Assembly: GCF_000203815.1 (NCBI RefSeq)
Contig: NW_004457695.1
Location: forward strand, 310,001 to 374,000
Length of the DNA stretch: 64,000 nucleotides
DNA from: Cavenderia fasciculata
Lineage: Eukaryota; Evosea; Eumycetozoa; Acytosteliales; Cavenderiaceae
Reading direction: 5' to 3'
The notes under the pieces are model-generated. The model was not told the origin of the DNA. It saw nothing but the letters and a program-made list of their open reading frames with translations, and ran no database searches. Positions 5,315 through 57,747 of the stretch are shown piece after piece; within the stretch, counting starts at the first letter, position 1, and each line of letters begins with the position of its first letter. A program made the position numbers and the translations under genes.

Positions 5315-8300
5315 ATGGACACTGATAATACATCTATCAACGAACAACAAGACATTGCAATCGTCGGTATCGGTTGCAGACTACCAGGTGGATCAAGAAC
5401 ACCACAACAATTCTATGACCAATTGCTCGGTGGTTTGGATGGTATCTCAGAGATGACTAATGATAGGTGGTCAAGATCATACATAGATCAAGGTTACATT
5501 GCTACTGATCGTGCTGGCTTCTTGGACATGAAAGAGTGGACTCACTTTGACAACCATTTCTTTGGTATGCTTGGTAAAGAAGCCGCTTCAATCGATCCTC
5601 AAGTACGTCTCTATCTTTCTGTGCTGTGGGAAGCTTTGGAAGATTCACATATCGATCCTGCATCTATAAGAGGTTCAAATACATCTGTATTTCTCGGTCA
5701 AATGTTTGATGCCAATCACCATATGCTTGCCCAAGATCTCGCTACAATGATTCCTCAAGTCAAGTCAATGAGATCAGACTCATCAATCAAAGCATCGTAT
5801 TGTTATGACTTCCGTGGTCAATCACTTTCAATTGACACTGCATGTTCATCGTCACTCATTGCAGTACTTCAAGGTATTGATACTATTCTTAAAGGTGAAA
5901 GTGATTTATCAATATGTGGTGGAGTCAATGCTTTCATTGAACCAAAGTCATCCATCCAATTCACTGGAATGAATATGATTGGAAAGGCAGGAAAGTGTGC
6001 AACATTTGATGAATCAGCCGACGGCTATGTTCGTGGTGAAGGTGTTGGTGTCGTTGTTCTCAAGAGACTGTCAAAAGCAATAGAGGACAATGATAATATT
6101 TATTGTGTAATTAAAGGTGGTAGCAGTAACGTGGATGGTAACTGGGAAAAGAGTTCACCAACTGCTCCTTCCTCGGCCGCTCAACATCTAAACACCCTCA
6201 ACGCACTAAACAAAGTATGTCTATCACCATCAGATATTTACTATGTTGAATGCCATGGTACTGGAACACCAACAGGAGACCCACTGGAGATTGAATCGAT
6301 ATCTCGGGTATTTGCAGGATCACACAGTCAATCGAATCCACTTCGAATTGGATCGGTTAAAAGTAACATTGGACACACTGAAAGTACAGCAGGTGTTGCA
6401 TCACTCATCAAATGTGCAATGATGCTCAAGAATAGAATGTTGATCAAGAATATCAATTTCAACAAACTCAACCCAAAGATCAACCTATTAAATGGAGAAA
6501 TCAAGATTGTATTGGAGAATGAAGCATTCCCAGATGATGGAAGAATCATTCGAATGGGTATTAACTCATTTGGACTGACTGGTTCAAATGCTCATATCAT
6601 ACTTCAAGAGTATAAAACTGACATTATTGATGATCTGTATATTAATGGTAAATATTATTTTAATTAATTAATTTTTAATTAATACAATTAAATAATATTA
6701 ATTCATTATTTTAAAATACTAGGTACCCAACCACCAGGGCCAGGATATTTAATTCCATTCTCATCAAACAGTCAAAAATCCATTGATTCATATATCAATA
6801 TGATCAAGAGTAATGTTGAATCGTATCGCAACAAGATGACGTTTGAAGATTTCGTTAGATATCAATCACAATCCAAAACCAACCATCCAACTTGTAAAAA
6901 GGTTATCATTGCCAAAGATTGGGAATCATTCTCATCTGAACCAACATTGACCTTTGATAAACAGCAAAGCTATGTTTCAAGTATGGCACAATTGAACAGT
7001 ACACCAAAGACATCGATTGTGATGGTATTCTGTGGACAAGGAGCACAATGGAGTGGAATGGGTGATAGATTGTATCAACAATGTCCAATATTCCGTAAAT
7101 CAGTTGACACTGTCGATAGATTACTATCTCATCACTATCAATATTCAATCATTGATCGATTAAGAAAGAGTAATGATAAAGAGATACACCACCCAATACT
7201 TGCACAACCAGCAACATTTATCATTCAAGTTGCATTGGTTCAATTATATCATCATTTTGGAATCACTCCATCAATCGTTGTTGGTCATAGGTATTTATTA
7301 TTAATTTATTTATAATTGTTATTTTTTTGTACTAATTTAATTATTATTTTTAATTTAGTTTTGGAGATATAACAGCAGCATGGTGTTCAGGAATATTATC
7401 ATTGGAAGAAGCTGTTAGAATTGTATATTTGAGAAGTGTTGCTCAAAATGAAACTATTGGAAGTGGTAGAATGTTGGCTGTATCATTATCATATGATAAA
7501 TTCAAAGAGAGATTCCAACAATATGATACAATCGAGTTGGCATGTTACAACTCAGCTGAATCAATTGTATTGGCTGGAAATGAAGATCAACTCAAATTAA
7601 TCGACCAACAACTCAAGAATGATAATATATTCAGTGCATTCCTTGGTACACCATGTGCATTCCATTCATCATCACAAATTGAAACAAAGGAATTCATATT
7701 CAAAAACCTTAACAACATTGAATACCAAACATACAAACCAACGATGCCATACTTTTCAACAACAACCTCACAACAAATCATTATATCATCACAGTTGGAT
7801 GCTCAATACATTTATGATAATCTCAGACAACCAGTATTATTCCAACAAACAATCAATAATATAGTTGATTTCACAAAGAATGATGGCAATCAATATATTT
7901 ATTTAGAGATTGCACCACATTCAACACTATCATTCTATTTGAAATCATTACTGCCACAAGGAAGCAATATTCAATCACCACTCAACAAAAAGAAAGATGA
8001 AATTGAATCAATTCAATCATGTCTCTCTCAACTCTACTTTGGTGGTGTTGGTGTTGATTTTTCAAATCAATTACCTTTGGAAAACAACAGTGAATGGAAG
8101 AATAGAACAAGATATCTCCCAAGATATCAATGGGATACTGAGTATTTGTTGGAAGAGCAGGAAGCATACAGAAAGATTAGACTTGGTGGAGTTACAACGA
8201 CTCTACTTGGTCATTGTGACAGTGAATCACTCAATAGCTATCAAACATCGATTGATGTCAACCGACCATCATATCAATATTTAAAAGGTCACAAAGTAAA

Positions 8301-12492: not shown

Positions 12493-12758
12493 ATTAATTA
12501 ATGATATTCATTCATTACGAATTATTACAGATAGATAGATATTATTGATAAAGATAATATTAAAATAAATAAATATTTGAATTAATTAGTCATTTGTCAT
12601 ATGGTAATTGATACATAGTTTTCATAAACAATTATTGTGCAAGAAAGTGGTTTGAGATTGTACAGCAAATCGACAACTAATAAAAAACAGTGTATTCTTT
12701 TGATAATTTTTGAGTTATTTATCATTCATAAATTATTATTTAAATTATTACAACTATT
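12493..12758. repeat. PKS2-PKS3 spacer with duplicated 3' flank
   Basis: The first ~95 bases copy the PKS1 3' flank at 4871-4965, with small indels (one extra TAT). The rest is unique AT-rich sequence that should contain the PKS3 promoter. The shared flank shows that the duplicated unit extended past the stop codon. PKS3 itself has a different 3' flank. Confidence 0.75.
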
Positions 12759-15705
12759 ATGATAGACACTCAAACTATTCCTTTGAAGGACCAAGGCATT
12801 GCAATCGTCGGTATCGGTTGCAGACTACCAGGTGGATCGAGAACACCACAACAATTCTATGAGCAGTTACTCGGTGGTTTGGATGGTATCTCAAAGATGA
12901 CTGATGATAGGTGGTCAAGATCATATGTCGATCAAGGTTACATTGCTACTGATCGTGCTGGCTTCTTGGACATGAAAGAGTGGACTCACTTTGACAACCA
13001 TTTCTTTGGTATGCTTGGTAAAGAAGCCGCTTCAATCGATCCTCAAGTACGTCTCTATCTCTCGGTACTTTGGGAAGCTTTAGAAGATTCACATATCGAT
13101 CCTGCATCGATAAGAGGTTCAAATACATCAGTATTTCTCGGTCAAATGTTTGATGCCAATCACCACATGCTGGCTCAAGATCTCGCTACAATGATTCCTC
13201 AAGTCAAGTCAATGAGATCAGACTCATCAATCAAAGCATCGTATTGTTATGACTTCCGTGGTCAATCACTTTCAATTGACACTGCATGTTCATCGTCACT
13301 CATTGCAGTACTACAAGGTATTGATACCATCCTTAAAGGTGAAAGTGATTTATCAATATGTGGTGGAGTCAATGCTTTCATTGAACCAAAGTCATCCATT
13401 CAATTCACTGGAATGAATATGATTGGAAAGGCAGGAAAGTGTGCAACATTTGATGAATCAGCCGACGGCTATGTTCGTGGTGAAGGTGTTGGTGTCGTTG
13501 TTCTCAAGAGACTGTCAAAAGCAATCGAGGACAATGATAATATTTATTGTGTCATCAAAGGTGGAAGTAGCAACGTAGATGGTAACTGGGAAAAGAATTC
13601 ACCAACTGCTCCCTCCTCGGCAGCTCAACATGCAAACACACTCAATGCACTCAACAAAACCGGACTATCACCATCAGATATCTATTACGTTGAATGTCAT
13701 GGTACTGGGACACCGACAGGAGACCCACTGGAAATTGAATCAATATCTCGAGTATTTGCAGGATCACACAGCCAATGCAACCCGCTTCGAATTGGATCAG
13801 TCAAAAGTAATATTGGACACATTGAAAGTACAGCAGGTGTTGCATCACTCATCAAATGTGCAATGATGCTCAAGAATAGAATGTTGATCAAGAATATCAA
13901 TTTCAACAAACTCAACCCAAAGATCAACCTATTAAACGGAGAGATCAAGATTGTATTGGAGAATGAAGCATTCCCAGATGATGGAAGAATCATTCGAATG
14001 GGTATTAACTCGTTTGGACTGACTGGTTCAAATGCTCATATCATACTTCAAGAATATATAGCTCCAGATAATAATATTGTCGATATGGATACCAAACAAA
14101 GTATGTTATTAAAATTTCATTTATTTATAATTTTTATTTATTATATCTCTTTTTATTTTAGGTCATCAAACACCACCAGTCCCAGGCTATTTAATTCCAT
14201 TCTCATCAAACAGTCAAAAATCAATTGATTCATATATCAATATGATCAAGAGTAATGTTGAATCGTATCGCAACAAGATGACATTTGAAGATTTTGTTAG
14301 ATATCAATCACAATCCAAAACCAACCATCCAACTTGTAAAAAGGTTATCATTGCCAAAGATTGGGAATCATTCTCATCAGAATCAACGTTGACCTTTGAT
14401 AAACAACAAAGTTATGTTTCAAGTATGGCACAATTGAACAGCACACCAAAGACATCGATAGTGATGGTATTTTGTGGACAAGGAGCACAATGGAGTGGAA
14501 TGGGTGATAGATTGTATCAACAATGTCCAATATTCCGTAAATCAGTTGACACTGTCGATAGATTACTATCTCATCACTATCAATATTCAATCATTGATCG
14601 ATTAAGAAAGAGTAATGATAAAGAGATACACCACCCAATACTTGCACAACCAGCAACATTTATCATTCAAGTTGCATTGGTTCAATTATATCATCATTTT
14701 GGAATCACTCCATCAATCGTTGTTGGTCATAGGTATTTATTATTAATTTATTTATAATTGTTATTTTTTTGTACTAATTTAATTATTATTTTTAATTTAG
14801 TTTTGGAGATATAACAGCAGCATGGTGTTCAGGAATATTATCATTGGAAGAAGCTGTTAGAATTGTATATTTGAGAAGTGTTGCTCAAAATGAAACTATT
14901 GGAAGTGGAAGAATGTTGGCTGTATCCCTGTCTTATGATAAATTCAAAGAGAGATTCCAACAATCATCATCACAATATGATTCAATCGAGTTGGCATGTT
15001 ACAACTCAGCTGAATCAATTGTATTGGCTGGAAATGAAGATCAACTCAAATTAATCGACCAACAACTCAAGAATGATAATATATTCAGTGCATTCCTTGG
15101 TACACCATGTGCATTCCATTCATCATCACAAATTGAAACAAAGGAATTCATATTCAAAACCCTTAACAACATTGAATACCAATCATACAAACCAACGATG
15201 CCATACTTTTCAACAACAACCTCACAACGAATCATTATATCATCACAGTTGGATGCTCAATACATTTATGATAATCTCAGACAACCAGTATTATTCCAAC
15301 AAACAATCAATAATATAGTTGATTTCACAAAGAATGATGGCAATCAATATATTTATTTAGAGATTGCACCACATTCAACACTATCATTCTATTTGAAATC
15401 ATTACTGCCACAAGGAAGCAATATTCAATCACCACTCAACAAAAAGAAAGATGAAATTGAATCAATTCAATCATGTCTCTCTCAACTCTACTTTGGTGGT
15501 GTTGGTGTTGATTTTTCAAATCAACTCCCATTGGAAAACAACAGTGAATGGAAGAATAGAACAAGATATCTTCCAAGATATCAATGGGATACTGAATATT
15601 TGTTGGAAGAGCAGGAAGCATACAGAAAGATTAGACTTGGAGGACTGTCAACGACTCTACTTGGTCATTGTGACAGTGAATCACTCAATAGCTATCAAAC
15701 ATCGA

Positions 15706-18146
15706 CCCCTCATACCTCGCAGATTTTGAGTTTTTTTTTTTTTATTTCCTTAATACTTTAAATAAAGATTGTAAAGTATCAATGAACAAGTAAATCAAGT
15801 AAGATGAACTTATAATACTCGGAGTGGTCTATGTTAATGTTTAATGGTTGGGGAGAAATTCTTTAAATGTCGAAGATATTCGTCTCACAAAATTTTGTAG
15901 GGTGGTTTTGAAAGATGCATATCTTTATATGGGATAGATGTATCAAACAAACAAAACTGAACAATGTATCATATACTACAGTTGAAGGACTATATTTTTT
16001 CTAGGATAGATTTTTAAACTTGAAATAAAAGAGATATTAATGATATTTAAAAGTACAAAAAATTTGAGATAGAGAAAAGGCTATTTCAGGGTAAGATTAT
16101 GTGAGACCCAAATATATCTAAAGCATTAAAGATCGGTTATATTATTTGTTATTTACATTTATACATCAAGAAAGGTTGGTTTTAGTGAAAAATATGGTGT
16201 GGAGAAGGTTTTTACAATTTGGTGTGAGATTTTACGCGGCAGCTTATAAATGGTATGCTTTACTTGGGTAAACGATATTCTTTGACTAAAGACGTAGCAA
16301 GTGTTCTAATGAACTCCCTGTGATCCAGGTGACTCTCTACATTAAATATACATAATATATGCATTTGTGACAGCATACATAAGAAGTCCAAGGAATTGGC
16401 TTTGGTCAGTGGACGAGTGTGGATGGTTGTGCCAAAAGTAGGTAGCCAACTGGTTGAATTGATCGAGCGCTCTCTTGGTATCATCATAGCGATTAAGTAT
16501 AAGACTTCTACCTACTGACGTTACCCTGGTTTTGGACGACTTCATCTTAAAAGAATTTGTCGCTAATCTCATCACCTTGTTTCTGTGATAGCCAGCGGCG
16601 ATAGTGGCACCCTTGAAAGCAAATCTTGACTTCCATTGGGGCAGCCCAACAATGATTCCTACTTTCCATACTTCCGATGGGAGTCTATCTGCTTTAATAC
16701 AAAGCGTTCCATACATTCCATTTCTTTCCAAGTAACTTATTTGGTTTAGTGTGGAGAACTTGCTGTCAGCTGTTATATGATAGTCCTTTTTGGTGTCTAG
16801 TTTAACAGATTCAACTAGTTTTTGAAAACTTGTCTCTCCATTGTATTCCTTGCTTGGTATCATAGCTAACAAGTACCTTGTCTTGGTATCTGAAAGGGTG
16901 TTGTACTCTATGGCCCACTTCTCTGGTTTGTCTTTGTTAAAACTGAGTAGATCTTTATCTCTAGGCTATGCTTTGATCCTTGATTCGTCGACTGTGAGAA
17001 AAGTACCAGGGTCTATGTGTCTTTTGAAGTTGGCTTGAAGCATATTAACAAATATGTCGATGGGGATGTAGATGTTGGGGTGAATAAGCTCCCATCTGGA
17101 CTTGGGAAGAGATTCTCCCTTGAATGGGTAATTGTATGACCATGTTCCAGTAGTAAACAGTTCTGTGTTATTATCTATTCCAAGGGTTATAGATGTAAAC
17201 ACCAAAGCAAAGTAATTGTATACTTCAAATACGTTAAGCTTTGGTTTATCTTGACAAAATGCATCTGTACGGTTGCTGAAAAGCACAATTTCCTTGACAA
17301 TGCTCTTTGTAATCATGCTCCTGAAATAATCGAGAGGTTCAGATGATGTTGGAACACGCTTCCACCTATGTCGATGTATATTCATCCTCTCTTCAAACCT
17401 GTTGACTAAAGTTAGTGATTTTTATAAGATGAAAATGTTACTATCATGCTTACTCTATAAATTCTTCTCCTCTTGGTACCTTAGTATGCTTGATTGGCTG
17501 TCCATCTGTACCATCTACTTGTTGTTGAATTGGTTTTCTCTTATTCGGCATTGTATAGATAAAAAGCTGAGTAATAATAAGTAAAAAAATCTATACAAAA
17601 CTTTGTGTATATGTATTTAAATTTTAAACTAAGTTTTTTTTGGCGGGTTTGCAAGTAGTTACTTTCAGCTTATTATCGTACAACAAGGTTTTTATTTTAT
17701 TTTGATAGAAATATACCAATCGATGGATCTATTTGTCTAGTGATACACAAAGAAAGTTTTAATAAAAAAAAATAAAATATGACCTATTTTTATCTCTCAT
17801 AACGATCACCTATCTAAGTCTCGTTTTTAGGTATATTTCACCATTTCTCGAAAAAAGAATATTCCTACATTTGTAGAATCATAATCCTTTTGTTCCCTTC
17901 TTCCAGCACCTAATCTATTTAAAATAACATTGATGTAAAAAAACCTAGTATACTATTTTTTATGAAATAAAATACTATCACAATTTCTTTTGATTTGAAC
18001 AAATATTTTACGCTCAACCAAGTTTAATCTGAGCACTATCATGTAAAGTAATCAGATTTGGTATATACTTGTTCCTTTCCTACATTTTATTAATTTAATT
18101 AAAAAATATTAAAGTAAAAATCGAAAATTGTGCGAGGTCTGGGGAG
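15706..18146 (-). mobile_element. piggyBac-like DNA transposon (2441 bp) inserted in PKS3
   Basis: The boundaries are exact because the interrupted gene has uninterrupted siblings. The target sequence TCGA is duplicated (15702-15705 and 18147-18150). The ends form imperfect terminal inverted repeats of about 25 bp: CCCCTCATACCTCGCA at the left and, read inward on the other strand, CCCCAGACCTCGCACAA at the right, both followed by ATTTT and a T-rich stretch. CCC termini, a 4-bp target duplication and a DDE_Tnp_1_7-like transposase on the minus strand fit the piggyBac superfamily, although canonical piggyBac uses TTAA. The noncoding arms (15706-16259 and 17552-18146) show no further gene. Confidence 0.85.
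16260..17551 (-). pseudogene. piggyBac-type transposase, decayed
   Basis: Transposase of the DDE_Tnp_1_7 (piggyBac) type, which would cut and paste the element. The start is ATG at 17551-17549; a 55-nt intron (17399-17453) then joins the lysine-rich N-terminus to the main body. Features: a first catalytic Asp in FLTVDESRIK, a second in HYITADSKFSTL, and a C-terminal NAYIMY motif followed by HREFIRTLATSLVKEY, typical of the family end. Two lesions: an in-frame TAG at 16968-16966 just after the first catalytic Asp (flanking residues RIKA and PRDKD continue in frame), and a frameshift near 16345-16360 before the C-terminal segment. The copy is therefore unlikely to be self-mobile. Family assignment is from motif pattern only. 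Confidence 0.78.
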
Positions 18147-51267: not shown

Positions 51268-52923
51268 CTACTTTGTCTAAACTCTCAAGGTATCTATAAT
51301 GGGAACGTGATTGTTCATAAAATTGATTTGGATGATTAACAACTGTAAAATTGGTTCTATTCTTTGGATGAAGAAAAGCAAAATGTTTTCCACATGCAAC
51401 CTTAAAATAATAAATAAAAAATAATAAATAAATTAATTCAATAATGATTTGATTTGATTTGATAATATTTTGTTTGTTTGTTTACTTACATTCATTGAAA
51501 TTTTAGAAGTAACCAACATATCTTCAATGACAAATTGATCAATATTTAAAGATTGTAATTTTTGTTGAAGTTTGTCAGACTCCCACATATAGGGACATCC
51601 ATGAACTTGTTCAATTGCATTTGGTATTTTCTGTTGGATCTTGAGACAGGCATAGGGAGAGTACGAGGTAGCCTTTCCTTCAAGACCATAGGTATGACGG
51701 AACGTGTAGGAATAGTCTTTGTCAAAATCGGCACCAGACACCTTTTTCGAAAACATTTGTTTCCAATAGACGATGGCATCTTCATAGACAAACCCAATAC
51801 CCTTGAGAAAGGTGGAGAATTGGAGACGACCTTCATGCTTGAGTTTACCAGTTTGAACGAGTGTATCGTGCATGACACGCATACACAATGGGAACGATGT
51901 CTTGGAGAGTGGTGCAATTTCAAGAGGTCCCACTCTACCCTGTACCTTGGTGGTCGCATTACCAAGTGGATTGTTGCATTTAGGTAATGTGGCAAAGAAA
52001 TCGTAAATGTCTGGGAACTGCATCTTTAATCGTTCCTTTTCCTCTCTAACAGCATCCAATGTAAATTGCAAGTATGAACGATACGTCTCTGCTACGACAT
52101 CAGCAATATCACTACGTAGAATATACGCCACACCCTTTTGAACTACAACCTTTTTTCTCATCACCAAATAAGGTACTTCTTGAAATGCAATCTTTATAAA
52201 TGTATCATTTCCAAATGGTTTTATATTTAAATTTGCTTTTGATTTTCTCTAAACAATCAAACAAAACAAACAAAATAAACAAATACATATTAATATTTCC
52301 TGCTGTCTTTGTCTTTTCTTGTCTTTGTTTCTTTTCATTCTTTTTTTTTAATTACATACATAAATATAATTTAAACTGTCTTTATATTGATCAAATTCTT
52401 CAGTTGATACTGGGTTCCAGCCAAATTCAGAATATTGTTGAAGAAAAGATTGAGTTTCTGCAGCGGTTGCTTGTTCCAATCGGTATTTCAATAGATTGAT
52501 TTCTTGTTGAATGAACCAATCACGATCGTCCGATGTACACATTGCCAAACGTAACAAAAAGTGTGAACATTCATCTTTATATTGATACAACTCTTCACTT
52601 TGATTGATAAACTCTACCAATCCCGATCTCATTGCTTCATCAAACTCTAATTTATTATTACCTGATATATTTGTCTTTGCATCTGATATTGTCTTTAATA
52701 CTAATAAATATAGATAGATAGATTAGTAACTAACTTAAGTATGTGAATAGTTTGAAAGTAATAATACAATACACTGTAATCTACTTAGACACATATGTTC
52801 TATTTGAGATGCATTGATGTGGTCGAGTGATGGTGGACTACAATACAACGATAACTTGTATCTATAATCTCTATCTTGTAATTGAACTGGTTGTTGTAAT
52901 TTAGGTTTCTTTATAACTTGCAT
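51215..52923 (-). CDS. DNA primase large subunit (PRIM2/PriL)
   Basis: Regulatory iron-sulphur subunit of the DNA polymerase alpha-primase complex, nuclear, needed for RNA primer synthesis in replication. Four exons: 52773-52923, 52360-52700, 51490-52248 and 51215-51400; 478 residues, close to the ~510 of the human protein. The four cluster cysteines sit at 286 (FPLCMRVMH), 365 (PYACLK), 382 (HGCPY) and 420 (VACGKHFAFLHP), nearly the same spacing as in human PRIM2. Other family marks are GRLQFSTFLKGIGFVYEDAI and the YTFRHTYGLEGK block. The last exon ends in an Asn run encoded by an (ATT)n microsatellite and a short Gln run, a dictyostelid-style tail outside the folded domain. A decayed partial copy lies at 58380-59040. 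Confidence 0.94.
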
Positions 52924-53447: not shown

Positions 53448-56400
53448 TTAAAGGGTTGAATAAGAGGTACCTTCGAGATAACGATCTACTCCATCGACAA
53501 GGACCATTTCAGGCATTGATGCAACCATAATAAAACGATTACCTCTGCCTGGTTTGCTGTTACCATAGACAAGAGCATCCCATTGACCATAGGAACAATC
53601 ATTGATGTTATAAGAGTAGATAACTTCAAATATACCGTTGGATTGCCATCCCTTTCTGCATCGCTGTCTACTAGCTGGGGATTGGGAAAGGACTTGGTTG
53701 GTCTTTAGATTTGTGAGGGTATAGCTGAGTTGGCCATAAGAGGCAAACAAGAAAGAGGAGCCCATGAAATTATCGGTCTTTTCAGTTGGGTACAATGAAT
53801 AGTTGTCATATAGACCAGACACCTTGAATTTACCCCAAACGACTGCACCAGTTGCCGTACGATAAACAACTGCTGTTTCACCTTCATTTTCAGAGTGAGA
53901 TCCTGGTGGAGGGATTTGAAGGTATCTAAGGTAGAGATAGATAGAGTTAGTTTTAATTAATTGAAAAGGGAGAATATAAGTTGGATAAAATTATAATTAT
54001 AATTACCTCATTGTTGGATAATCATTGGTGTTGGCACCATCAATACACCAACCTAAACTTTTAGAACCAGCTGCATTAACTCCGTGGATACAAGCACCCT
54101 TGGTGGTTACTTCTAGTGCCGCTGTTACATAATTGGAGTTTCTATAGTCTACACGCCATTGGGTGAATGGGTTGGACGATCGAGGACTTCTATTGGTAAA
54201 ATAGATGGTCATGGTCATATCCGAGACCTCGAGAGATGCAGAGAGATAGTCTCTTCCATTGGTGATGAATTGACCCGACTTGATTTCACGGTTGTTTGGA
54301 TCCAAGGTATCGAGGAAACTACCTGGGATGAGAGCGATACGGTTGGATTGAGCAGCTCCGAATCTGCCCCATACCATCTTGCCGGCTGCGTTGGTCATGA
54401 CAATACCCCATTCTCTGCCATAGGCACCTGGTTGAAGGATATTGACCATAGTTGCACCAAGATTTTGAGTGTAGGTACAGTATGTGGCGGCCCCAGACAT
54501 AATTGGAGCAATACATAGATTACCATCACCTTGGAGAGTGGCCATGTAGGTTAGCTTACTATCAACAGCCTCATTTGATGTCCAAATCATACCAGAGTCA
54601 CTGCGGAATAACTTGAAGTTGCCCTGGCCGAGAGTCAAACCAGCACTAACGCCACCATTAGCATTTAGTTGATAGTTGGGGAATACAGACGAATAAATGG
54701 TGTTTGGACCAAACACTTCATTATAATCCATCAACGCACCAAGTTCAAATCCAATTGCTTTATCGGTGTGCACTGAAGCTGTTGGTGTTGGGACACTCCA
54801 TAGTTGTTTCTGATCGGTAGAGTCACAAGTGACATAGGGGAGATCAGCTGCAATTTCATTGGATAGATCCTTTGATCCACATGCACTTGGATGAGAGATG
54901 GTGCATGTATAGGTTTGTGCTGGTGATTCGGTACAAGTAAATGGAGTGGCAGTGGCGGCACATTGGAACTTGGTGATAAAGGTACGAGTGGATTGCGTGT
55001 ATCTAAGATTGATTCCTTTGCCAAGACCGCTACCAATCGTGACGAGGTTTTGAGTCGACGAAACACCAGTTGCAAAGATAGCTCCAGATTTGGGTGAGTA
55101 TTGACAAGATTGGAGGGTGGCATCGTTACAACTTGGTGGGGAAGCATTGCAGACACTGAAAAACATACGATAGTTGTTATTATCGGTATCATAGTTGGAT
55201 GTCAGCGATACATTGTAGGCAGCAGATGAGAGTGGCGACAAATCATAACGGTATCCATTACCGTCAGTGAAGAAGCATGTTGAGGGTGCAGAGAGACATT
55301 TACCAGAGTTGGTATTTTTGATAGTGAATTGGTTGCTCGAGGACGCGGTGTAAATGAACTTGTGATAAGATTGGTCGTTGGAAAAATCTGCAAGAATAGT
55401 GTTGTCCAAACTTTGATGGAGGTGCAACTTTGTCAGAGTATTGGTGAGCATACGAGCCGTTGGTCTGAGAGTAAATCTCCAAATTTGAAGACCATTGGTG
55501 TGGTCACAGCTTCTCAACGATGGCTTGCCCGTGGTGGCACTGGCTGACAAACAGAGATTGTTGTAGAAATTGTTCTTGAGTTGTTTGAATACATTGTCTT
55601 CAGGACCCTTTGTGTGAGCATCGGTGTTGACGGCAGAAGTGACACTGTACCATGCGATACCTTGGTTGACAAATCCTGGGATGTAGTGTTCGTGTGACAT
55701 GGCCTGGAAGTATCCAACGGTCGAAGCATGGCGATAAATGGGAGTTCTGTCGGCCGCAGCAGTGGTGAAGACATTGAATACTGGACCATCCTCGGTAAAC
55801 AGAGTACCATCAATGGCCGTTGGGTTGGAACCAATGTGATATTGGTAGATGGTTTGTCCGGGGGTAGCAGTCTTTGATGAGAATTGATAGACAGTTGAAG
55901 TGGAAGTGTCACCAGAGTTGTAGGTGAATGCTCCAAACACTTGGCCCACAAGCTCAGGACTTTGAGGATCTCGATAAATACTTAGCCTGGCCGACATGCT
56001 CATCCAGGAAAGTGCTTGGTGGTATTTGTAGATGATGACTGGGATCTTTGGTTTGGAAGGGATAGGAACAGTCGAGAAGAGGTAGATGATCGAGCTGGCA
56101 GCTTGACTGTTTGAAGTAAGGGTTGCTCCATCCTGTAAAACATTACCAATGTATCTCGATCCTACACAGGCACCAGAGAGGTAATACCCGTCACCATAGG
56201 TCGTTGTGACAGTAGATGGACTCGTTTTAGTGTCACCGATAGCTTGGCTGACGAAACCTTTGGAAGAGTTGAACGAGACACGATTAATGTAGTCGCCATA
56301 GTAGGTGGTGACTGAATTGATATAGTCTGGCTTGTAATAGACGACTGTGCCTGCAAGAACAACAGTATCACCTGTGACTTCATCAAACCCAGCCAAGGCC

Positions 56401-57747
56401 GACGTAAAGGGTGGTACATTTTGAATGAATCGCAAGCCAGTGACACCATCGACATAGTTGTGAGTGATGGTAATGTATTGGTGTTGGTCATACACTTTGA
56501 TTTGGCCGACCGATGGCATTCGAGTGGCCATACATGGATTAGTGTTGGCTTTTAAAGGGTTTGGGAAACTCATACCAGATGGTACTGTACCTTCATCTAA
56601 AAAATACAAGAGAGAAGAGTAATTACATGGATTAGTAGATGGTAATCGGATTGATGGTTTGTATCTATACTATTCGCGAAACATACTTGCACTACTAACT
56701 TGATAAACAGAATACGTTTGGAGTTTACCGACAAGAGGAGAATACATGGTCTTGATTGGTCTTGGTGGTGCACCGTAGGGGTACTTGATAGGATCCAAGT
56801 AATTCCAGTAGTAGGCTTGGTCGTGAACACCAAGTGCCATCATAATGACATACTGAGCAACCTTGTTGTACTCGTCGACTGGAAGAGTGGCGGCATTGTT
56901 GAGAGTGGCCGTATATCTCGAGTAGATATCGTTGACATGGTTGCTGGCATCGGTAGCAAAGGTGGCCAATAGACTTTGGAGATAATTCTTTTCTTCATAG
57001 GTGTAACCGATTTTATAGACGTCTGCAATTTGGTCACGAAGCAGTCCGAGATACAAGTTGGTGTATTGGACAAACAATGGAAGAGCTGCGGCCTTGACGT
57101 TTAACGATTTTGTTTCATCGGAAACTCCAAAAAAGAATTTGCTCTTGAGAGGGAACAAATAAAGGTTTCTAAAGTAGGTTGCAAAGGCACTCTTGTCCCT
57201 TTCGCCAGACGGGTCGCCACATTTGACTCGGATATCATTTGGGCCAGCCTCCATGCATACAAAGTATGATTCCTTAAAAGAGGCTAGAATGGCTTTGAGA
57301 TCAACTTGCATGGTCATCAGATCATTACATTCGATGGCATAGACAATCGTATCTTTGATATACTTGGCAAGCAATTCAGTCGTGTCTGTCCTTACGTCAA
57401 ACATCTTGGCCAACTGACCAGCAAGAGCACTAACTGCTCCACCAACAGCTCCACCAGCAACAACACCAACAGCACTACCAAGTGCCCCAGTCGCAGCGTC
57501 TACCATCTTATTCCAGGCACTATAAATATATATAGAGAGATACATGGATATTTAGGAATTTGTAAATAAATAAATAATACTATAGCAGTGACCATGCAAA
57601 AAAGTTTTGATATACTACATACATTCCAGCTTCGTAAGAGTCAAGGTCTCCAATAGCTGTACAAGGATCTTGTTGACCAATGACTATATTAGTCATTAGC
57701 AATAAAGCTATGAATAAATAGGTTATGGTTCTCTTCCTATTTATCAT
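53448..57747 (-). CDS. Secreted protein with Cry-type (Endotoxin_N-like) domain and lectin-like modules
   Basis: Four exons: 57623-57747, 56687-57519, 54007-56596 and 53448-53925; 1341 residues, all GT-AG, frame intact. It starts with a signal peptide (ITYLFIALLLMTNIVIG). Residues ~42-319 begin with a Gly/Ala-rich hydrophobic helix and are otherwise helical; the pattern LPLFVQYTNLYLGLLRD, then a YPYGA-type segment and IKTMYSPLVG, resembles domain I of Bacillus Cry delta-endotoxins, the pore-forming helical bundle. From ~320 come repeats resembling the DUF5648 type (PIYRHAS..GYF..), ricin-B-like segments (LCLSAS..LRSCD..QIWRF) and bulb-lectin-like units (TLQGDGNLC, AAGKMVWGRFG). A role against prey or competitors, or in surface recognition, is conceivable; activity is unproven. 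The domain call is by pattern only. Bacterial origin of the N-terminal domain is an inference; the four-exon structure shows it is domesticated. Confidence 0.8.

Follow-up and report, generated by a model that had tools for sequence, protein, structure and literature searches.

How does a gene of a social amoeba come to encode a helical bundle of the kind present in bacterial Cry toxins, followed by a tail of sugar-binding-type modules, and what could its product do? The question is raised by DFA_07711 of Cavenderia fasciculata, which lies in a window of 64,000 nucleotides, i.e., the whole stretch of DNA that was analysed (C14:310001-374000, from a genome of 31.0 Mb). An initial sequence-only reading placed the gene in a dictyostelid context, which is borne out by the source genome, and noted that Cry domains otherwise occur mainly in bacteria. 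Endotoxin_N has already been published in dictyostelids. Table 2 of PMC3188802 lists it in D. discoideum (DDB_G0289249) and D. purpureum as a horizontal-transfer candidate of unknown function, and Table 2 of PMC4334915 counts 4, 27, 6 and 4 genes of the delta-endotoxin family in D. discoideum, A. subglobosum, P. pallidum and D. fasciculatum, respectively, the last name being given as a synonym of C. fasciculata in the available text of PMC8202022. DFA_07711 comes from the same organism group as this dictyostelid family (DDB_G0289249, DPU_G0058298; OG5_181792), within which it has an unusual and real architecture. The fusion provides testable handles on the function of the dictyostelid Cry domain I proteins that were listed as transfer candidates (PMC3188802, Table 2), namely, a signal-peptide-like start, three kinds of sugar-binding-type module, natural variants that have or lack an MRH domain, and tail relatives that lack the Cry part and can serve as controls.

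Gene structure and genomic setting

Our own splicing of the minus strand yielded an intact gene at 53448..57747, with four exons and a single frame of 1341 amino acids, exactly as the sequence-only reading had proposed, and the spliced translation is identical to the deposited DFA_07711 protein. All three introns are GT-AG, with lengths of 103, 90 and 81 bases. Exon 1 (57623..57747, minus strand, as for all features below) includes the signal-peptide-like residues 1-24 (57676-57747), exon 2 (56687..57519) contains the entire Cry domain I, exon 3 (54007..56596) encodes the middle region and lectin modules, and exon 4 (53448..53925) encodes the C-terminal module, residues 1184-1341. Judged by eye, the N-terminus, MINRKRTITYLFIALLLMTNIVIGQQ, is signal-peptide-like, in agreement with the earlier proposal, and the protein is probably secreted.

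The neighbouring frame at 51436-52248 is that of the DNA primase large subunit, and thus the genomic setting is eukaryotic. A contaminating bacterial sequence and a fortuitous profile match were both considered as the source of the Cry signal and ruled out: the gene has introns, which occur at equivalent positions in its paralogues, it sits next to the primase frame on a contig of 3.47 Mb, and the Endotoxin_N match has an E-value of 7.4e-11. The probability of such an artefact is therefore negligible.

The Cry domain I-like bundle

The proposed Cry domain I-like bundle was recovered by the Pfam profile Endotoxin_N at residues 63-284 (56793..57458), with a score of 42.6 bits compared to a cut-off of 21.3 bits. 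The two full-length paralogues score 38.7 and 24.5 bits, so that the domain is above the cut-off in all three long proteins. When a family profile of domain I was compared to the PDB, Cry proteins made up 13 of the 15 matches at E <= 10. At the level of sequence profiles, it is confirmed that the bundle of DFA_07711 belongs to the Cry domain I superfamily (Endotoxin_N). The predicted model of the domain is all-helical, with medium confidence, and has Cry structures among its top matches: Cry chains appear in 20 of the best 50 of 266 Foldseek matches and in 24 of the 50 matches listed by VIA. The model agrees with the suggested Cry domain I fold, although on its own it is no proof of the central-helix bundle.

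Residues 188-206 (LPLFVQYTNLYLGLLRDQI; 57027..57083), which fall within helix 180-210 of the predicted model, are aligned to a Cry1B/1K chain and represent a candidate central helix, which we take to be alpha-5-like. The bundle is followed by a conserved segment (residues 285-312; 56709..56792) that is aligned to a Cry chain beyond the bundle of the latter and presumably corresponds to the junction with Cry domain II. The bundle cysteines 106, 130 and 142 are conserved in the alignment of all three long paralogues, and may lock the bundle or tune it by redox.

The middle region

No convincing family match was obtained for residues 321-650 (55605..56594) in Pfam scans or with hhalign. Neither Endotoxin_M nor Endotoxin_C was detected in the long proteins by a Pfam scan at E <= 10, and the four short members of the family that were scanned with Pfam are likewise without matches to these two profiles. 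The comparison of residues 320-655 to the C-terminal half of the short family by hhalign gave only 0.1%. It should be noted that the Cry domain II/III content of residues 320-655 was judged from sequence alone, the structure prediction for exon 3 having a pLDDT of 28 and being left out of the evidence. By this measure, DFA_07711 is not a three-domain Cry toxin. The absence of detectable domains II and III fits a swap of the targeting part for lectins.

The lectin tail

The long tail had been described as lectin-like repeats. Lectin modules are indeed present; however, they are different modules rather than repeats, and the part from residue 321 to residue 650 belongs to no recognised family. 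Judging from profiles and alignments, the lectin tail is real but more weakly supported than the Cry domain I. It starts with the first part of a ricin-type beta-trefoil (residues 655-757; 55284..55592), continues with an MRH (CIMR-type) domain within the trefoil (residues 753-894; 54873..55298) and with the last stretch of the trefoil behind this insert (residues 903-919; 54798..54848, placed by alignment with the trefoil of the paralogue P0002), and goes on to a bulb-lectin-like module (residues 973-1031; 54462..54638, weak profile matches) and a WGRFG-type module (residues 1040-1120; 54195..54437) that also occurs in lectin genes without a Cry part. The C-terminal module of exon 4 may be a remote repeat of the WGRFG-type module before it, to which it shows a weak self-match (E 0.017) and only 2.6% in hhalign.

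In DFA_07711 (P0001), the Pfam scores are below the respective cut-offs for Ricin_B_lectin (27.5 bits, cut-off 29; the trefoil is split by the insert), CIMR (21.2 bits, cut-off 22.5) and B_lectin (14.7 bits, cut-off 32.4), and the CIMR match at this gene has 27.6 bits in a six-frame search of the genome. For the paralogue P0003, the scores are 15.1 bits for Ricin_B_lectin and 16.8 bits for CIMR. With a profile of the three paralogues, the best match in the PDB was CI-MPR (E 3.2e-4, and 3.1e-5 in a second profile search), followed by bulb-type agglutinins (best 1bwu, E 6.6e-3); bulb-lectin-like modules in the tail are weakly supported. The trefoil of P0002 is uninterrupted, scoring 31.2 bits for Ricin_B_lectin in the whole protein and 34.9 bits as a piece (profile positions 3-126 of 126), and in the alignment with P0001 this paralogue is without approximately 145 residues at the site of the CIMR match. 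In P0001, the ricin match extends to position 103 of the profile and breaks off at the beginning of the insert. Therefore, the trefoils of P0001 and P0003 appear to be interrupted, close to their end, by an MRH-type domain.

The trefoil and MRH assignments are credible despite the sub-cut-off scores, because of the PDB profile matches, the comparison with P0002, and the existence of separate lectin and MRH-like genes in the same genome. At two such loci (L018 and L019), where the trefoil exceeds the cut-off with 52.5 and 51.8 bits, the frames that follow have WGRFG-type modules, and a third (L020) has such modules as well; thus, these genes resemble the DFA_07711 tail in trefoil and/or WGRFG-type modules, and no Cry domain was found in the frames read at the three loci, for which the gene models are provisional. 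Stand-alone MRH-like genes at L021 showed 30-31% identity in the genome search (E 1.2e-9 and 7.3e-7), and stand-alone MRH-like sequences in the alignment had 31-33% identity and shared cysteines; the one protein of this kind that was scanned had no CIMR match at E <= 5, which counts against the MRH likeness. For the MRH domain, we assumed a carbohydrate-binding set of Gln, Arg, Glu and Tyr, and assigned the candidate residues Q815 (or Q818), R857, E876 and Y882 by position. All four aligned sequences have Q815, E876 and Y882, and two of the four have R857. In the available part of PMC7481795, Gln, Arg, Glu and Arg are named as the binding set of one domain. Of the seven segments compared between P0001 and P0003, the MRH part evolves most slowly (pN 0.302, compared to 0.425 overall).

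Long paralogues and selection

The genome-wide search with Endotoxin_N yielded eight loci, all above the cut-off (10 match rows), of which five are short Cry-like genes and three are long Cry-lectin genes. The latter are intact frames of 1187-1341 codons, and DFA_07711 is 54% and 40% identical to its long paralogues. Introns 1 and 2 are equivalent in phase and position in all three long genes (with gaps in the alignment around intron 2), and the same holds for intron 3 in two of the three. The long genes show signs of purifying selection, with dN/dS of 0.40, 0.39 and 0.44 in the three pairs (Nei-Gojobori, own script) and 0.32-0.45 for domain I; these values are rough because the synonymous divergence is high (0.97-1.59). 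There are two decayed-looking copies, one with stops at C18:1428721-1430241 and the other near C18:1373724, where, by eye, a domain I piece abuts the C-terminal module. An NCBIfam scan of P0001-P0004 gave no match for three of the four proteins and a single, far sub-threshold bacteriocin match for P0003.

Relationship to the short family and origin

Three of the short genes have deposited proteins, with lengths of 647-664 amino acids compared to 1187-1341 for the long ones. The long and short C. fasciculata families were aligned by hhalign at 97.7% (E 2e-12, residues 48-311). All five short C. fasciculata sequences are matched by the long domain I profile, at 20.3-55.6 bits, and four of the five by the profile of the whole long proteins, and the short profile matches all three long proteins. 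In this comparison, which covers the C. fasciculata members, domain I and the following segment are homologous to those of DFA_07711, whereas the short proteins differ in length, their C-terminal half has no match to DFA_07711, and only DFA_07711 has a lectin-type tail; no lectin domain was found at E <= 1 in the four of five short members scanned with Pfam. With the long domain I profile, the highest score of a short relative in the same genome is 55.6 bits, compared to 22.1 bits for the top-scoring bacterial Cry protein of the PDB with a profile realigned from the same three long sequences; for this reason, an elaboration of the dictyostelid short family seems a more likely origin of the long gene than a separate acquisition. 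Of the old acquisition that had been postulated, the age is supported by the introns and divergent paralogues, whereas the elaboration of a resident family seems likelier than a separate event.

None of the introns coincide between the long genes and the three short genes that were mapped. Intron 1 of the long genes shares phase 2 with that of P0005 and P0006, the two being approximately 15 residues apart close to the beginning of domain I, in a part of uncertain alignment. By eye, a clear signal-peptide-like start is present in L013, which is among the two best-scoring short relatives, and possibly in L009, and none was seen in P0004-P0006. We infer from these comparisons that the lineage itself added a resident lectin tail to a short form, which may have been secreted.

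Recent bacterial transfer is unsupported. A tblastn search with the first 334 residues against 72,556 plasmid records gave no match at E <= 0.01, nor did the short relative L009 against plasmid records, and pattern scans of genome and viral contigs with the short-family alignment produced no confirmed relative, the patterns being dictyostelid-specific. These plasmid and contig negatives are weak, single-sequence tblastn being less sensitive than a profile. Protein searches returned only C. fasciculata matches (3, 2 and 3 rows) among the 7994-7996 candidates that share most words, and were too insensitive to count against the fusion in other species, given that one missed P0003, a member of its own query alignment, and another recovered no published short members of other dictyostelids.

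Possible function

We tentatively favour, at not quite an even chance, the possibility that DFA_07711 is a dictyostelid-built fusion, the product of which is a secreted, glycan-targeted, Cry-derived membrane-active protein directed against prey, competitors or grazers. A Cry-superfamily bundle long resident in social amoebae would have been fused to lectin modules with separate-gene relatives in the genome. The signal peptide would route the protein into the secretory pathway, the trefoil, MRH and bulb-type modules would, as expected from their families, attach to glycans of a target surface, and the bundle, once concentrated there, might rearrange and disturb or perforate the membrane, by analogy to Cry toxins. 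The target would most likely be another soil organism, such as prey bacteria, competitors or grazers. The glycan-guided, membrane-active reading is based on the analogy with Cry toxins and with Cry-ricin fusions, and the main caution comes from the three conserved cysteines of the bundle. Should membrane activity be demonstrated, a eukaryote would here have put the pore-forming domain of Cry toxins to new use, with targeting parts of its own making. A bolder proposal, which we consider rather improbable, is that refitting the Cry bundle with the amoeba's own lectins, including an MRH domain inside a trefoil, created a modular secreted effector aimable at different glycans, perhaps also at its own phagosomes via phosphomannose, i.e., an immune or predatory system native to a eukaryote.

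The main rival is a serious one, albeit somewhat unlikely: the protein may be a lectin of the extracellular matrix or spore coat, in which the bundle is structural or multimerising and glycans of the amoeba itself are cross-linked by the tail. This is favoured by the lectin-like nature of much of the protein, by the occurrence of the tail modules in related genes without the Cry part, by the conserved cysteines and by the undetected domains II and III; however, all three paralogues have kept the stretches that align with the central helix of Cry and with the part behind it, and a dN/dS of 0.32-0.45 in domain I is not obviously needed by a mere spacer. A phagosomal or lysosomal weapon, in which the MRH domain binds the amoeba's own phosphomannosyl glycans and the bundle is delivered to phagolysosomes and attacks ingested bacteria, is decidedly doubtful. 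In its favour are the MRH-type domain and the slow evolution of the latter, and a title cited in PMC7481795 states that D. discoideum lysosomal enzymes are recognised by CI-MPR, but P0002 is entirely without this domain, and the MRH binding residues are guesses from position. Even less can be said for a family that is restricted to this lineage, drifts and has hardly any function at present, a very unlikely state in our estimate: two copies are apparently decayed and the protein evolves fast, being 54% and 40% identical to its paralogues, whereas three frames of 1187-1341 codons are intact and have a dN/dS of about 0.4, which points the other way.

Comparison with known systems

Bacterial three-domain Cry toxins have the domain I profile and the helical model in common with DFA_07711, which differs from them in the signal-peptide-like start, the introns, the lectin-type tail, and the lack of detected Endotoxin_M and Endotoxin_C. 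Outside the classic Cry toxins, the bundle of PirB-type toxins is matched by the short-family profile and by the DFA_07711 model, and IPD113, presumably a fern protein, has a weak match to the short-family profile (E 0.042); to our knowledge, neither has a lectin tail like that of DFA_07711. The profile match between CI-MPR and DFA_07711 covers the first half of the domain, and in DFA_07711, unlike CI-MPR, there is one MRH-type domain, nested in the beta-trefoil of a different protein.

A ricin-type trefoil behind Cry domains is described for bacterial Cry41-type proteins in the accessible text of PMC4247256 and PMC5371835. Cry41-type parasporins and an aphid-active Cry-related protein share with DFA_07711 the order of a Cry bundle followed by such a trefoil; unlike DFA_07711, the aphid-active protein has all three Cry domains and Cry41Aa has the five conserved blocks, and no mention of an MRH or bulb-type module is made in these parts of the two papers. 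Thus, Cry domain I in dictyostelids is already known, and the three-lectin fusion is without a description found in the literature searched, which covered dictyostelid endotoxins, Cry toxins and MRH domains, mostly in non-subscription papers. In protein databases, parts of the protein already have the labels Endotoxin_N, Ricin_B_lectin and "MRH domain-containing".

Related Loci in the C. fasciculata Genome

Two relatives of the Cry-lectin gene DFA_07711 elsewhere in the same genome, both on C18, appear to be decayed: one (C18:1428721-1430241) is interrupted by several stops, and in the other (C18:1371500-1375500) a piece of the Cry domain I-like helical bundle, recognized by eye, adjoins the C-terminal module. 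Lectin frames without a Cry domain were found at C14:1453704 and at C3:2072070, each combining a trefoil with the WGRFG-type module and each having a signal-peptide-like start; another frame without a Cry domain, at C14:2749394, carries lectin modules of the WGRFG type. At C16:170906-172416 and downstream of it, two neighbouring frames represent stand-alone proteins resembling the mannose-6-phosphate-receptor-type (MRH) domain, with signal-peptide-like features, and a third, related frame lies downstream of these two.

In the long Cry-lectin paralogue P0003, residues 936-1044 weakly match the profile for lectin-like bacteriocins related to putidacin L1 (15.4 bits, far under the cut-off of 275). 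Outside the dictyostelids, the profile search also matched Endotoxin_N in one of the 14 control genomes, that of the archaeon Methanosarcina acetivorans.

Other Frames in the Window

Polyketide-synthase-like frames lie in tandem on the plus strand at 2-22356 of the window, with ends that look near-identical in the frame listing. A ketoacyl synthase was confirmed by Pfam at 12744-14225, this confirmation being limited to that one frame. Between the polyketide-synthase-like frames lies a fragment with a match to the DDE_Tnp_1_7 transposase family (16345-16965, minus strand, 58.7 bits).
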